DNA of 64,000 nucleotides from Pseudomonas sp. CHM02 (GTDB lineage Bacteria; Pseudomonadota; Gammaproteobacteria; Pseudomonadales; Pseudomonadaceae). The notes beneath the pieces are model-generated. The model was not told the origin of the DNA. It searched no databases and saw only the letters and a program-made list of their open reading frames with translations. Position 1 is the first letter of the stretch; each line of letters starts with the position of its first letter. The stretch is from positions 1 to 64,000 of the forward strand of contig NZ_JFCA01000016.1 in assembly GCF_000612585.1 (NCBI RefSeq), read 5' to 3'. Below are positions 5,003 through 10,876 of this stretch, in pieces. A program made the position numbers and the translations under genes.

Positions 5003-6568
5003 TTACGCCGGGGCGGAGGTGCGGATCAGGTGATCGAAAGCGCTCAGGGAAGCCTTGGCGCCCTCGCCCACCGCAATCACGATCTGCTTGTACGGCACCG
5101 TCGTGACGTCACCGGCGGCGAACACACCCGGCAGTGAAGTCTCGCCACGCGCATCGACGATGATCTCGCCGCGCGGTGTCAGCTCTACGGTGCCTTTGAG
5201 CCAATCGGTGTTGGGCAGCAAACCGATCTGCACAAAGATGCCTTCCAGGTCGATGGTCTTGAACTCGCCGCTGTCGCGATCCTTGTATGCCAGGCCGGTG
5301 ACTTTCTGGCCATCGCCTTTCACTTCACTGGTCAGCGCGCTGGTGATCACGTCAACGTTCGGCAGGCTGTAGAGCTTGCGCTGCAACACGGCATCGGCGC
5401 GCAGTTTGCTGTCGAACTCGAGCAAAGTGACATGGCTGACGATACCCGCCAGGTCGATGGCCGCTTCCACGCCGGAGTTACCGCCGCCGATCACCGCGAC
5501 ACGCTTGCCTTTGAACAACGGGCCATCGCAGTGTGGGCAGAAGCAGACGCCTTTGGCCTTGTATTCCTGCTCACCGGGCACACCCATTTCTCTCCAGCGT
5601 GCGCCGGTGGCCAGGATCACGGTCTTGGACTTGAGAGTCGCACCGCTTTCGAAGCGAATCTCGTGCAGGTCACCGGCATTTTTCGCCGGGATCAGGCTGC
5701 TGGCACGCTGCAGGTTCATGATGTCCACGTCGTACTGGCGTACGTGGGTTTCCAGGGCGCTGGCCAGTTTCGGGCCTTCGGTTTCCTGTACCGAGATGAA
5801 GTTCTCGATGGACATGGTGTCCAGCACCTGCCCACCAAAACGCTCGGCAGCGACGCCGGTACGGATGCCTTTACGTGCCGCGTAGATCGCCGCCGAAGAA
5901 CCGGCGGGGCCACCACCGACGACGAGGACATCAAAAGCGTCTTTGGCGCTGATTTTCTCGGCGGCTTTTTCAATGCCGCTGGTGTCGAGCTTGGCGAGGA
6001 TTTCTTCCAAACCCATACGGCCCTGGCCGAAGTTCACACCGTTCAAGTAAACGCTGGGCACCGCCATGATCTGGCGCTCATCGACTTCAGCCTGGAACAG
6101 CGCGCCATCGATGGCGACGTGGCGGATGTTCGGGTTGAGCACGGCCATCAGGTTCAATGCCTGGACCACGTCCGGGCAGTTCTGGCACGACAACGAGAAG
6201 TAGGTCTCGAAGCTGAACTCGCCTTTGAGGGCGCGGATCTGCTCGATCACTTCGACACTGGCCTTCGACGGGTGGCCACCGACTTGCAGCAGGGCCAGCA
6301 CCAGCGAAGTGAATTCATGGCCCATGGGGATGCCGGCAAAACGCAGGCTGATATCGGCACCCGGGCGGTTGATGGAGAACGAAGGCTTGCGCGCATCATC
6401 GCCATCGGTTTTCAGGGTAATCAGCGTAGTGAGGCTGACAACGTCCTGCAAAAGAGCAAGCATTTCCTGGGATTTCGCACCGTCGTCGAGGGAGGCGACG
6501 ATCTCGATCGGCTGGGTGACCCGTTCCAGGTATGACTTCAACTGAGCTTTAAGATTGGCGTCCAACAT
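5003..6568 (-). CDS. ahpF: Alkyl hydroperoxide reductase subunit F
   Basis: Flavoprotein disulfide reductase that passes electrons from NADH to AhpC. The 521-residue product has two tandem thioredoxin-fold domains with a CQNC centre at 128-131, then a thioredoxin-reductase-like part with the FAD motif [10 protein letters not shown] (218 on), the redox CPHC at 344-347 and the NAD motif [10 protein letters not shown]. It is full length with all redox cysteines intact. It lies downstream of ahpC on the same strand, separated by a terminator, so it may need read-through or its own promoter. Confidence 0.97.
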
Positions 6569-6607
6569 ACGGGCGATTTCCTATTAATTCGGTTTATTGC
6601 AGACAAA

Positions 6608-6642
6608 AAAACGCCCGAGCGAATCTCGCCCGGGCGTTTTTG
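6608..6642 (-). terminator. Terminator between ahpC and ahpF
   Basis: ACGCCCG 6611-6617 pairs with CGGGCGT 6631-6637, with a further GCGA/TCGC pairing inside, flanked by A and T tracts. It lies between the end of ahpC and the start of ahpF and probably lowers ahpF expression relative to ahpC. Confidence 0.75.
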
Positions 6643-6696
6643 GGGGCGGATGCAGCTTACTTAAGTGCGGATTCCCGCCCTTGAGACTTCACAGAC

Positions 6697-7260
6697 TTAG
6701 ATCTTGCCGACCAGGTCCAGGGACGGAGCCAGGGTGGCTTCGCCTTCTTTCCACTTGGCTGGGCAGACTTCGCCTGGGTGGGCAGCGACGTATTGAGCGG
6801 CCTTGATTTTGCGCAGCAGCTCGGAAGCGTCACGGCCAACACCACCGTCATTCAGTTCAACGATCTTGATCTGACCTTCTGGGTTGATCACGAAAGTACC
6901 GCGGTCTGCCAGGCCAGCTTCTTCGATCAGTACGTCGAAGTTGCGGGAGATGGTCAGGGTTGGGTCGCCGATCATGGTGTACTGGATCTTGCCGATGGCT
7001 GGCGAAGTGTTGTGCCAGGCAGCGTGGGCAAAGTGAGTGTCGGTGGAAACGCTGTAGATTTCGACGCCCAGTTTCTGGAATTCGGCGTAGTTGTCAGCCA
7101 GGTCTTCCAGCTCGGTTGGGCAAACGAAGGTGAAGTCGGCTGGGTAGAAGAACACAACGGACCACTTGCCTTTCAGGTCAGCGTCGGACACATCTACGAA
7201 GTTGCCGTTTTTGTAGGCGGTAGCTTTGAACGGTTTTACTTGGCTGTTGATGATAGGCAT
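6697..7260 (-). CDS. ahpC: Alkyl hydroperoxide reductase subunit C (2-Cys peroxiredoxin)
   Basis: Peroxiredoxin that reduces hydrogen peroxide, organic hydroperoxides and peroxynitrite. The 187-residue product starts [11 protein letters not shown]. The peroxidatic cysteine is Cys47 in FTFVCPTE and the resolving cysteine Cys166 in GEVCPAKW. The start at 7260 matches the family; the frame is open 21 codons further upstream but that stretch is not family-like. An OxyR-type site and a -10 lie upstream, and ahpF follows. Confidence 0.97.
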
Positions 7261-7312
7261 CGTTGACTCTCCGTCAGGTTTTGTAGAAGGGGTGAAGAAG
7301 TTGATGAAGTGA

Positions 7313-7378
7313 ATCCTACCCACTCTCTCGGCCGATGGCTCATTGGCAAACCTGATGCTGACGATTGGTTTTCCCTAT
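7313..7378 (-). promoter_or_regulatory. OxyR-type binding site and promoter of ahpC
   Basis: Four tetramers with exact seven-base spacing are visible on the plus strand: ATTG 7342-7345, TGAT 7353-7356, ATTG 7364-7367 and CTAT 7375-7378, fitting the OxyR pattern ATAG-N7-CTAT-N7-ATAG-N7-CTAT. Read on the minus strand, a -10-like TAGGAT lies at 7318-7313, so the box abuts the -35 position as expected for activation. The oxyR gene is elsewhere. Confidence 0.7.
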
Positions 7379-7405: not shown

Positions 7406-8338
7406 TCAAAGCAGCGGCTGGGTCGCCAAGGTCATGCCAAGAAAGGGCGTCGCTTCAACATAGCGCATGGCGGATTTCATGTCGCTCCAGCCGACGTAAC
7501 TCATCAACGACTTGAGATCCCAGCCGCTGCGATGAGCCCAGGTGGCAAAACCGCGACGCAGTGAGTGGCTGGTGTATTGCTCGGCAGGGATGCCGGCGCG
7601 CTCCAGCGCCTGGCGCAGCAACGGGATCACGCTGTTGGGGTGCAAGCCCTCCTCCCCCAGGTTGCCCCAGCGATCGATGCCTCGGAACACCGGGCCCCGC
7701 ACCAATGCCGAGGCGCTGAGCCACTCGCTGTAGGCCTGTACCGGGCACAGGCGTAACAGCGCCGGGGTGTGGTAGGTCTTGCCGAGGTTGTCGCGGTCGC
7801 TTTTGCTGCGCGGCAGGTACAGGCTGATGCCCGCACCGGGCGTAGCCTGCACATGCTCGATGTCGAGACGGCACAGCTCATCGCTACGGAAGCCACGCCA
7901 GAAGCCCAGCAGGATCAGTGCGGTGTCACGCTTGGCGCGCAGCAACCGCGGCGGGTCCTGTGCCTGCGCCGCCTCTTTCGCCTCAACGTCAAGAGACGCC
8001 ACCACCTGCTCCAGATGCTTGAGCTGCAAGGGTTCGGCCTGTTTCTCCTGCGCCGGGTGCACGGCACGGATGCCCTTGAGCACCTTGCGCACCACCGGCG
8101 CCTTGGTCGGGTCGGGAAAACCCTGGCTCGTGTGCCACTGCGCCAACGCAGAGAGCCGCAGCTTCAAGGTGTTGACAGCCAGCACTCCGGCATGAGCGAC
8201 CAGGTACCGCGCCACGCTGTCGCTGGTCGCCGGCAGGAAACCTCCCCAACTCACTTCGAAATGCTCGATGGCCGCGCGATAGCTACGCCGCGTGTTATCG
8301 CGGGTAGCGGCGTTGAGGTAACGATCCAGATCGCTCAT
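7406..8338 (-). CDS. Tyrosine recombinase, TnpS-like (cointegrate-resolution type)
   Basis: The 310-residue site-specific recombinase has an N-terminal SAM-like core-binding domain (about 1-90) and a C-terminal catalytic domain. Catalytic residues are Arg151 (GFRSDEL), Lys179 (RSKSD), His258 and Arg261 (HSLRRGF), Trp284 in the usual second-His position, and nucleophile Tyr293 (MRYVEA). It is divergent from a KfrA-like coiled-coil gene. That arrangement matches TnpS/TnpT, which resolve cointegrates of Tn4651-type transposons, and TnpT-like proteins are annotated so in Pseudomonas chromosomes. No transposase or terminal repeats are seen, so it may be domesticated. A plain phage or XerD-like integrase is the alternative. 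Confidence 0.85.
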   Translation of the reverse strand: MSDLDRYLNAATRDNTRRSYRAAIEHFEVSWGGFLPATSDSVARYLVAHAGVLAVNTLKLRLSALAQWHTSQGFPDPTKAPVVRKVLKGIRAVHPAQEKQAEPLQLKHLEQVVASLDVEAKEAAQAQDPPRLLRAKRDTALILLGFWRGFRSDELCRLDIEHVQATPGAGISLYLPRSKSDRDNLGKTYHTPALLRLCPVQAYSEWLSASALVRGPVFRGIDRWGNLGEEGLHPNSVIPLLRQALERAGIPAEQYTSHSLRRGFATWAHRSGWDLKSLMSYVGWSDMKSAMRYVEATPFLGMTLATQPLL

Positions 8339-8508
8339 GGGAGGCCTATTCGTACTGCTGGCGGGTACTTTCGCGGATTAAATGCGCATGACACGGGATA
8401 ATACGCCAATATCCCATCTGTTAAACTATGAATTTAAACAGATTTTTATTCTTGTTACAGTACGTATATACATACCACGTACCACACTACGAAATCGACG
8501 GAGACCCC
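8339..8508. promoter_or_regulatory. Divergent intergenic region with palindromes, candidate recombination/TnpT site
   Basis: Three inverted repeats sit in 90 bases: GGGATA 8395-8400 with TATCCC 8410-8415; ATCTGTT 8416-8422 with AACAGAT 8437-8443, 28 bases overall, the size of a tyrosine-recombinase core; and GTACG 8460-8464 with CGTAC 8478-8482. The segment is clearly AT-richer than its surroundings. In TnpS/TnpT modules the recombination site lies between the divergent genes, so this is the place to look for it; the promoters must also be here. Confidence 0.5.
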
Positions 8509-9516
8509 ATGGCTCGCGGCGGCATCAATAAAGCAGTAGTTCAAACGGCACGCCTGGCGATCCTCGCCCGTGGCGAAAACCCCAGCATCGACGCTGTACG
8601 CATCGAAATGGGCAACACCGGTTCGAAAACCACGATTCATCGCTATTTGAAAGAGCTGGACGACAGCGAAACCCGCGTCACCATCACTGAGGCGCCGATC
8701 GACGACGAACTTGGCGAACTGGTCGCACGCCTGGCCCAGCGCCTGAAAGACAAGGCCCAGGAGCCAATCGACCTGGCCCTGGCACAGTTCGAACAGCAAA
8801 AAGCCGCCCTGCTCGCCCAGATAGAAGCGCTCGAAGACGCTCATGGGCAGCTCAAGCAACAGCTTGATATCCAGGCCGCAGCCCTGGCAGAAGAAAGCGC
8901 TGCCCTGCACACCGCCAGCACCAGCCTGCAGACCGAACAAACCCGTAACGCCGGGCTGAGCCAGGCGTGCAGCGATTACGAGTTACGGATCAACGACAAG
9001 GACGAACAGATTCGTTCGCTGGAAGAAAAGCACCTGCATGCCCGAGACGCCCTGGAGCATTACCGCAATGCAATCAAGGAGCAGCGCGAGCAGGAACAGC
9101 GCCGCCACGAAGGCCAGTTGCAGCAGGTCCAGGCCGAATTGCGCCAGGCACAGCAAAGCGCCATGGTGCGTCAGGATGAGATCACCCAACTGCATCGCGA
9201 CAACGAGCGCCTGTTGATCGAACATCGGGTGACCGCGAAGGAGTTGGCCGCCTTGCAGGAACAGTCCCGCAAGGATCAAGCCCAGCAACTCAAGCTGAGC
9301 GAACAGGTCGGCCTGATAGACAGCGAGCGCACCTTGCTTCAGGAACGCCTACGGGTGGCCGTGCTGGAGAGCCAGTCACGCCAGGAAGCGCTGACCGAAC
9401 ACCAGCGCAACAACAAGAGCCTGGAACTGGAGTTGATCAAGGCCCAGGCCAGTATCGAGGCATTGCGCCTGGCGGCCGCCGTTGCAACGGCGCCAGAGGC
9501 AACCCCCAAAGCCTGA
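8509..9516 (+). CDS. KfrA-like DNA-binding coiled-coil protein (TnpT-like)
   Basis: The 335-residue protein has an N-terminal KfrA-type helix-turn-helix domain (about 5-55, with PSIDAVRIEMGNTGSKTTIH), followed by some 240 residues of Gln/Glu/Leu/Ala-rich heptads forming a long coiled coil. It probably binds DNA near its own gene and may stimulate the adjacent recombinase, as TnpT does for TnpS. GGAGA at 8500-8504 supports ATG 8509; an ATG at 8428 is in frame but gives an unlike extension. It is convergent with gor. A free-standing KfrA-type regulator is the alternative. Confidence 0.8.
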   Translation: MARGGINKAVVQTARLAILARGENPSIDAVRIEMGNTGSKTTIHRYLKELDDSETRVTITEAPIDDELGELVARLAQRLKDKAQEPIDLALAQFEQQKAALLAQIEALEDAHGQLKQQLDIQAAALAEESAALHTASTSLQTEQTRNAGLSQACSDYELRINDKDEQIRSLEEKHLHARDALEHYRNAIKEQREQEQRRHEGQLQQVQAELRQAQQSAMVRQDEITQLHRDNERLLIEHRVTAKELAALQEQSRKDQAQQLKLSEQVGLIDSERTLLQERLRVAVLESQSRQEALTEHQRNNKSLELELIKAQASIEALRLAAAVATAPEATPKA

Positions 9517-9517
9517 T

Positions 9518-10876
9518 TCAGCCCGCTACGGGCGTGCGCATGGTGACGAACTCTTCCGCCGCCGTGGGATGCACGCCGATGGTTTCATCGAAATGCTGCT
9601 TGGTCGCGCCCGCCTTGAGCGCGATCGCCAGGCCCTGCACGATTTCACCCGCATCCGGACCGACCATGTGGCAACCCAACACTTTGTCGGTGTCGGCGTC
9701 GACCACCAGTTTCATCAGGGTCTTTTCCTGGCACTCGGTCAGGGTCAGTTTCATCGGCCGGAAGCGGCTTTCAAAAATCTGCACCTTGTGACCCTTCTCT
9801 TTTGCTTCCTCTTCGCTCAGGCCCACGGTGCCGATGTTCGGCAGGCTGAACACCGCCGTCGGGATCATCGCGTAATCCACCGGGCGATACTGTTCAGGCT
9901 TGAACAGGCGGCGCGCCACCGCCATGCCTTCGGCCAGGGCAACCGGCGTCAGTTGCACGCGGCCGATCACGTCGCCGATGGCCAGGATCGATGATTCAGC
10001 GGTCTGGTACAGGTCATCGACCTCAACGAAGCCACGCTTGTCGAGCTTGACGCCCGTGTTCTCCAACCCCAGGTTATCCAGCATCGGACGACGCCCGGTG
10101 GCGTAGAACACGCAGTCGGCTTCCAGCACGCGGCCGTCTTTCAGCGTCGCCTTGAGGCTGCCGTCGGCCTGCTTGTCGATGCGCTCGATGTCGGCATTGA
10201 ATTGCAGGTCCAGGCCGCGCTTGGTCAGCTCTTCCTTCAGGTGCGTGCGCACCGAACCGTCGAAGCCGCGCAGGAACAAATCGCCGCGATACAGCAGGGT
10301 TGTCTGCGCACCCAGGCCGTGGAAGATCCCGGCGAACTCGACGGCAATATAACCACCCCCGACGACCAACACGCGCTTGGGCAGCTCCTTGAGGAAGAAC
10401 GCTTCATTGGAGCCAATCGCGTGTTCACGCCCTGGAATCTCCGGAATCTGCGGCCAGCCACCGGTAGCAATCAGAATGTGCTTGGCGGTGAAGCGCTCGC
10501 CATTGATCTCGACCTGATGCGGATCAACCACGCGCGCATGCCCCTCATGCAGGGTCACGCCGCTGTTGACCAGCAGGTTGCGGTAGATGCCGTTGAGGCG
10601 ATTGATCTCGCGGTCCTTGTTGGCGATCAAGGTCGCCCAGTCAAAATTCGCCTCGCCCAGCGACCAGCCAAAACCGCTGGCTTGCTCAAAGTCTTCGGCA
10701 AAATGTGCTCCGTACACCAGCAGCTTTTTCGGCACGCAGCCGACGTTGACGCAGGTGCCGCCCAGGTAGCGGCTTTCCGCCACGGCCACCTTGGCACCAA
10801 AGCCCGCCGCAAAGCGCGCCGCGCGAACACCGCCGGAACCGGCGCCAATTACATACAGGTCAAAATCGTAGGCCAT
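9518..10876 (-). CDS. gor: Glutathione-disulfide reductase
   Basis: NADPH-dependent flavoenzyme that regenerates reduced glutathione. The 452-residue product shows the FAD motif GAGSGG at 11-16, the redox pair Cys42/Cys47 in [13 protein letters not shown], the NADPH motif [10 protein letters not shown], and the C-terminal HPTAAEEF holding the active-site His of the partner subunit. It is full length and convergent with the KfrA-like gene. A terminator-bearing gap separates it from galU upstream. Confidence 0.96.

Follow-up and report, generated by a model that had tools for sequence, protein, structure and literature searches.

What does a site-specific recombinase do in a bacterial chromosome when no transposon surrounds it? 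This question is raised by a divergent pair of genes, here called rec and kfrA, in Pseudomonas sp. CHM02. We analyzed the pair within a window of 64,000 nucleotides (NCBI RefSeq assembly GCF_000612585.1, contig NZ_JFCA01000016.1, positions 1 to 64,000 of the forward strand). An earlier note on this DNA had described a tyrosine recombinase with all catalytic residues, divergent from a KfrA-domain protein in the layout of tnpS and tnpT of Tn4651-type transposons, directly flanked by ahpC and gor and accompanied by neither a transposase nor terminal repeats. It proposed a domesticated system whose substrates might be the chromosome, plasmids or visiting elements. The features on which the analysis draws are the following.

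6697-7323, minus strand: ahpC, conserved neighbour downstream of rec (context, outside the system)
7406-8338, minus strand: rec, predicted TnpS-like tyrosine recombinase of 310 aa (ORF list, Pfam, pWW0 comparison)
8395-8415, minus strand: candidate rst core site GGGATATTGGCGTATTATCCC, 21 bp, 56 bp upstream of rec (alignment with relatives)
8459-8504, minus strand: TnpT accessory-like site, GTATGTATATACGTAC plus CTCCGTCGATTTCGTA (resembles the DNA between tnpS and tnpT in pWW0)
8509-9516, plus strand: kfrA, predicted TnpT-like KfrA_N coiled-coil protein of 335 aa (Pfam, pWW0 comparison)
9518-10876, minus strand: gor, conserved gene flanking kfrA (context; served as positional control)

A TnpS/TnpT-like pair and the site between its genes

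We compared the window with the best 80 of 188 relatives found (genome_contigs). The rec product contains a Phage_integrase domain (Pfam, 50.7 bits against a cut-off of 27.1) and the residues R151, K179, H258, R261, W284 and Y293, which we take to be its catalytic residues and which are invariant across 80 sequences (the window and 79 loci). For kfrA, the ATG at 8509 (MARGGINKA...), a start shared with TnpT, is the most likely start, with a further ATG upstream at 8428; the product scores 80.9 bits for the KfrA_N domain against a Pfam cut-off of 26.1. Two genes of pWW0, labeled site-specific integrase and DNA-binding protein in their record, are presumably tnpS and tnpT of Tn4651. The rec product is 66% identical to the first (311 aa aligned) and the kfrA product 54% identical to the second (254 aa aligned), and the divergent order is the same in pWW0, which confirms the layout described in the earlier note. 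The two genes lie on opposite strands in 79 of the 80 loci, more often than chance would give.

We rejected the possibility that rec is a XerC/D paralogue, as the XerC and XerD models give it 29-30 bits, far under their cut-offs of 330-335; the pair is related to TnpS/TnpT. Among proteins of solved structure, Cre recombinases (E about 4e-6) come closest to rec in sequence. The earlier note had named a closer relationship to phage integrases as grounds for abandoning its reading. Only 19 phage records match rec, two of them close (57-61%; both unannotated, one a 33-kb 'Bacteriophage sp.' record and the other a fragment of 1.5 kb) and the others, Cre included, at 23-29%. Given these few and mostly distant matches and the host-gene neighborhood, we also rejected a phage integrase. 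We found no prophage or island around the pair, which is flanked by host genes on both sides in 73 of the 80 loci. A search of the window for a Tn3 transposase gave no match at E<=1e-3 (three queries, two of them partial), and no convincing terminal repeats surround the pair, the longest inverted repeat being 34 nt at 71%. The tnpA gene and terminal inverted repeats of a Tn3-family transposon were thus not found in the window, and, with synteny conserved, a recent transposon remnant was rejected as well.

In the relevant passages of PMC7157771, TnpS and TnpT form the two-part cointegrate resolvase of Tn4651-type elements, with the recombination site rst between the divergent genes, and passages of PMC4619425 describe the sites that make up rst. 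Our intergenic alignments (one of the window and 80 loci, and one that sets the window beside pWW0 and another 32 loci from several classes) reveal, going from kfrA to rec, first an accessory-like site and then the core. The motif of the former, CTCC..CGATTTCGTA followed by GTATGTA..TACATAC, is common to the window group and pWW0 and is present in 66 of 80 loci at up to 3 mismatches. Judged by sequence only, the region between the divergent genes therefore contains an rst, with its accessory-like site and a core inverted repeat. The core occurs in 79 of 80 loci at up to 2 mismatches, and 56 of these copies are identical. Across the 80 aligned rows (the window and 79 loci, L071 excluded), conservation is at least 97% in all but one of the 17 outer core columns (16 columns) and 88% in that one, the four center columns are 76-79% conserved with two main alleles, TGGC and ACTG, and the flanking DNA averages 77% and 63%. 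Fixed arms around a free center are the pattern expected of a tyrosine recombinase core with its overlap region. Folding of the core plus accessory stretch was no better than that of shuffled sequences, so that hairpins provide no evidence here.

The window's own genome has one core at up to 1 mismatch, the copy at 8395-8415. A second core-like site in another genome (G286, C90:8608, among the matches listed) looks like chance; it lies in apparent coding sequence, as judged by eye, and the surrounding 18 kb contain no TnpS or TnpT. One group of related mobile copies has a core of 23 bp, TTGGATAAT-N5-ATTATCCAA, the size given for Tn4651-type rst in passages of PMC4619425. The chromosomal core, with its TGGC or ACTG center and GGGATA arms, is unlike that of pWW0 and other mobile copies. 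In five divergent copies (L140, L141, L145, L148 and L152), 2.7-4.6 kb of cargo separates an rst-like stretch from rec. After reading the junctions we rejected integration at the core as the explanation, because a core-like repeat and accessory-like site still lie beside kfrA, with the cargo between these and rec. A further locus (L181) has a 3.8 kb gap between rec and kfrA and no recognized rst beside its kfrA. On these sequence data, the rec/kfrA pair is very probably an active TnpS/rst/TnpT module.

Chromosomal inheritance and position near dif

The gene order galU-gor-kfrA-rec-ahpC-ahpF is complete in 73 of the 80 loci. The same comparison provides the conserved locus and co-occurrence for which the earlier note had called, as a kfrA match accompanies rec in 79 of the 80; in the exception (L071) only 399 bp of contig remain upstream of rec, a stretch with repeats and without a core. 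Both genes appear to be under purifying selection (median dN/dS: rec = 0.074; kfrA = 0.094; ahpC = 0.035; gor = 0.040; L070 excluded because it failed the open-frame filter). In that excluded locus, the one of 80 with a frameshift, rec is disrupted (6001-6928), and in another genome (G108, L161 7048-7979) it is split into two pieces; the kfrA match is full length in both. At E<=1e-60, rec matches occur in 223 of 298 genomes of the genus (75 of 298 have no match) and in 83 of 248 genomes of the family, in 9 of 19 genera including its own. One genome of another genus (G361) has a rec 74% identical to that of the window together with kfrA, likewise beside gor-galU. The module thus reads as vertically inherited chromosomal equipment of Pseudomonas.

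In a tree of 79 rows, 18 syntenic copies form one group (support 82/98) apart from plasmid and transposon copies, a separate chromosomal lineage. The proposal of the earlier note is supported by these comparisons; for domestication the direction is unproved, as the tree does not give the order in which chromosome and transposon acquired the module. According to a table in PMC3056050, tnpS and tnpT are present in four P. putida genomes, of which three lack the tnpA of Tn4652, and the passages of that paper on these genes name no terminus role for them. Two loci among the relatives (L128 and L130) have TnpS/TnpT pairs with common neighbors of about 170-620 aa that resemble, with names assigned by eye only, a Tn7/Tn5053-type and defense-gene island.

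We measured distances to dif in 80 of the 84 near-complete genomes with rec (G011, G074, G129 and G144 were left out), using a query sequence that we take to be dif. A site was placed in 79 of the 80; the remaining genome (G176) has no dif match and is outside the distances, and a plasmid copy in G052 comes without dif. Syntenic copies (at least 77% identity) share a contig with dif in 56 of 57 cases. In each of the 56 the distance is within 50-420 kb and transcription runs towards dif, from one side in 39 and from the other in 17. The single core in the own genome and the distances of these 56 orthologues agree with the Xer/dif pattern, in which each chromosome has a single conserved site in its terminus region. 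The farthest orthologues, at 420 kb, are beyond the zone where dif works in E. coli.

Since the syntenic copies share one history, the independent positional evidence comes from the divergent copies (57-69% identity). All 28 of these, in 27 genomes, are 7-246 kb from dif (median 53 kb), so that 84 of 84 TnpS/TnpT copies of at least 57% identity measured in near-complete genomes are near the terminus. We read the flanks of 17 of the 28; none has ahpC, ahpF, galU or an orthologous gor in the DNA read, and some share neighbors with one another. As a control, the best gor match in the 23 genomes with divergent copies only was at a median of 533 kb from dif, and the TnpS copy was the closer of the two in all 23 (paired P = 2e-7, not corrected for kinship). 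Copies of 53-56% identity were within 500 kb of dif in 0 of 4 cases (0.6-1.6 Mb), and Tn3-linked copies of 44-45% were within 159 kb in 3 of 3 chromosomal cases.

Among four genomes of other genera, in which dif was sought within about 100 kb, it was found near a copy in three: about 0.2 kb separates dif from the end of tnpS, at its stop codon, in one (G320, L197, C1:2898761-2899882), a copy is at 81 kb in another (G349), and the third (G444) has two copies, one 93 kb away and the other, whose TnpS is 95% identical to that of Tn4651, at 7 kb. The fourth (G361) had no dif within about 100 kb of rec. The window genome itself has XerC, XerD and a dif site, the last on a different contig from the rec/kfrA pair, and a second TnpS/TnpT pair (L184 5870-8084; C23, about 104.9-107.1 kb) lies 14 kb from this dif, with a recombinase 59% identical to that of the window. 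About 5 kb from the same dif is a gene for a 304-aa XerC-like tyrosine recombinase (L183 6133-7047), which scores 115 bits against XerC, under the cut-off.

The pair may have no chromosomal role at all: copies would be retained near dif because a site free to recombine would, anywhere else, produce chromosome dimers, or would have arrived by insertion in the terminus, and the window copy would be a long-lived passenger. We consider this unlikely, but several observations fit it. Nearly unchanged relatives of Tn4651 are also close to dif, at 7 kb in G444 and at 59 kb in G288, where TnpT is 99% identical to that of Tn4651. We also located 15 chromosomal Tn3 transposase hits on contigs with dif (an adjoining fragment in G005, 4135927, was excluded): 4 of them have a 44-45% TnpS within about 21 kb and lie 2-180 kb from dif, and of the other 11, 9 are at 1.2-3.1 Mb and 2 partial ones at 25 and 63 kb. 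All 7 full-length transposases without such a TnpS nearby are in the 1.2-3.1 Mb range. Tn917, an element of the Tn3 family, is likewise said to target the terminus. Against a mere passenger stand the purifying selection on both genes and the strong conservation of the core within the group. A match to PF01526 (Tn3 transposase) at E<=1e-20 was present in 12 of 80 near-complete TnpS-bearing genomes and absent from 68, so retention of the pairs near dif does not depend on a resident Tn3 transposase. In G288, four TnpS-like genes (one partial; among the matches listed) lie within 180 kb around dif (C30:389093-567378).

Alternatively, the pair could work in trans on plasmids and transposons with a compatible rst, whose cointegrates or multimers it would resolve, and the chromosomal core would serve only as the control region of the pair. 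Plasmids often carry TnpS-like genes (326 records at E<=1e-40), and cointegrate resolution is the described function of TnpS with TnpT in Tn4651-type elements (passages of PMC7157771). Such a role leaves the terminus position unexplained, however, and both the difference between the chromosomal core and those of pWW0 and other mobile copies and the lack of a second site in the own genome at up to 1 mismatch speak against it; we regard it as quite improbable.

A phage inserted at the core

We searched the 2.9 million contigs of IMG/VR for the exact core and found it in one, IMGVR_UViG_3300005980_000003, a metagenomic contig of 54,156 bases with chromosome at both ends and phage between. One end carries the first codons of rec (MSDLDRYL) and the other those of kfrA (MARGGINKAVVQTARLAI), so that in this contig a phage is inserted exactly at the core between the two genes. 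The rec-side junction consists of phage ATTGGGTAG, TGGCGTATTATCCC and chromosomal GTGTCAG, and the kfrA-side junction of chromosomal ATGGGATAT, TGGCGTATTATCCC and phage GCATGAGG. A free relative of 53,513 bases, from a different sample, has the uninterrupted attP ATTGGGTAG-TGGCGTATTATCCC-GCATGAGG; the attB of the phage is the same 21-mer as the core of the window. The two hybrid junctions and attP together place the crossover in the common TGGCGTATTATCCCG, with the host TGGC center. The chromosome extends 80 and 147 bases beyond the core on this contig, and given its pair of reciprocal hybrid junctions an assembly error is unlikely, though possible. The core with an ACTGG center matched no viral contig. 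The earlier suggestion that the system may act on visiting elements gains a concrete case from this insertion. In the openly accessible literature, we found no report of a phage in an rst core or of a confinement of TnpS/TnpT to the terminus.

The phage is Chaseviridae-like, with a DNA polymerase 47% identical to that of Pantoea phage vB_PagM_SSEM1, in which none of the 90 of 97 features inspected is named integrase. In tblastn searches, neither phage, taken in all its pieces, had a hit at E<=0.1 to any of 10 recombinases or to 3 additional ORFs. A domain scan of the integrated phage recognized no integration family in the 44 distinct ORFs that it covered (39 with PHROGs, 5 with Pfam alone), with small ORFs and a few others outside the scan. 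One of its genes encodes a 1302-aa protein, a tape measure protein by position, with a YqaJ-like domain in the middle (L254 13183-17091). That the site is mainly a landing pad, entered by means of an unrecognized enzyme of the phage or XerCD, would account for an insertion exactly at the core and for the inner ATAA...TTAT feature that the core arms share by eye with dif, yet we hold it to be very unlikely, as these searches revealed no recombinase in the phages, the phage sits in the TnpS core and not in dif, and a landing pad alone explains the conservation of neither TnpT nor the accessory-like site. We infer instead that TnpS, rather than a phage or Xer enzyme, would catalyze the insertion.

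A possible terminus system and its relatives

Our preferred reading, to which we give an even chance, is that rec, kfrA and the core form an active, Xer-independent terminus recombination system that probably acts on sister chromosomes and can be used by visiting phages. By analogy with Tn4651, the KfrA-like TnpT would bind the accessory site next to its own gene, and TnpS would bind both arms of the 21-bp core and exchange strands in its short center, so that the two proteins would recombine two copies of the core. The partner of a single-copy site could only be its sister, another copy of the chromosome, or a visitor with a compatible center. Sister copies of DNA near dif are the last to separate. 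With a single core in the terminus domain, the natural partners would be the pair of sisters that replication produces, or both copies within a chromosome dimer. The module would then resolve dimers or sister links beside XerCD/dif, and a phage bearing a mimic of the core would insert at the chromosomal site. Sister-chromosome resolution as the host role is a possibility that we place slightly below an even chance. As XerC, XerD and dif are also present, this role would be auxiliary, and the module is not needed in the textbook sense. Other results also count against the preferred reading: 75 of 298 genus genomes lack a match, rec is broken in G108 and L070, orthologues can be as far as 420 kb from dif, G361 has no dif within about 100 kb, the four copies of 53-56% identity are far from dif, two partial Tn3 transposase hits without a TnpS nearby are close to it, and the phage insertion is known from a single metagenomic contig.

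A bolder form of this reading is tentative and, in our view, somewhat doubtful: TnpS, TnpT and a dif-like site would be a second terminus system, mobile copies would be tolerated only near dif, and the phage would mimic the site and become a prophage. The tolerance near dif alone would then stem from the same sister-recombination chemistry, and a phage group annotated without integrases would exemplify a new kind of host-recombinase hijack.

If the preferred reading is true, bacteria that already have XerCD/dif would possess a second route for handling sister chromosomes, in the form of a transposon resolution module that became, or always was, a chromosomal terminus system. It would provide a test of whether mobile-element recombinases derive from, or feed, chromosome maintenance, and the terminus bias of copies of at least 57% identity, 84 of 84, is a sharp and testable pattern. 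The phage would be a case of host-recombinase hijacking outside Xer/dif, and it would follow that phages classed as lytic for want of an integrase can sometimes integrate.

Of the known systems, TnpS/TnpT/rst of Tn4651 and Tn4652 is like the module in both proteins, in their divergent order and in the placement of the accessory site on the TnpT side and the core on the TnpS side. It differs in that no transposase or convincing terminal repeats were found with the window module, which has a conserved locus (galU-gor-[kfrA rec]-ahpC-ahpF), a core sequence of its own and a separate branch in the tree. The KfrA proteins of IncP-1 and IncU plasmids, likened here by domain and by partial description, share the KfrA_N domain and coiled coil, whereas kfrA has a clear relative in TnpT and lies beside a recombinase gene.

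Elements known as IMEX use the host XerCD (passages of PMC5357621). As with them, a phage in which no integrase was recognized occupies a host recombination site that it mimics, and both hybrid junctions and attP were found; the differences are that the site is the TnpS core and not dif, and that the element is a Chaseviridae-like phage on a 54 kb contig. In XerS/difSL and XerH/difH, the recombinase gene and site form one module (passages of PMC5357621), and the Legionella XerL system was found through a mobile element that mimics a terminus site (passages of PMC9765430). The window module resembles the former in having a single tyrosine recombinase gene linked to a site in the terminus region, and the latter in that the same logic applies to the phage in the core. 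Unlike these single-recombinase dif systems, it combines a TnpS-like enzyme with a KfrA-like partner and coexists with XerC, XerD and dif.
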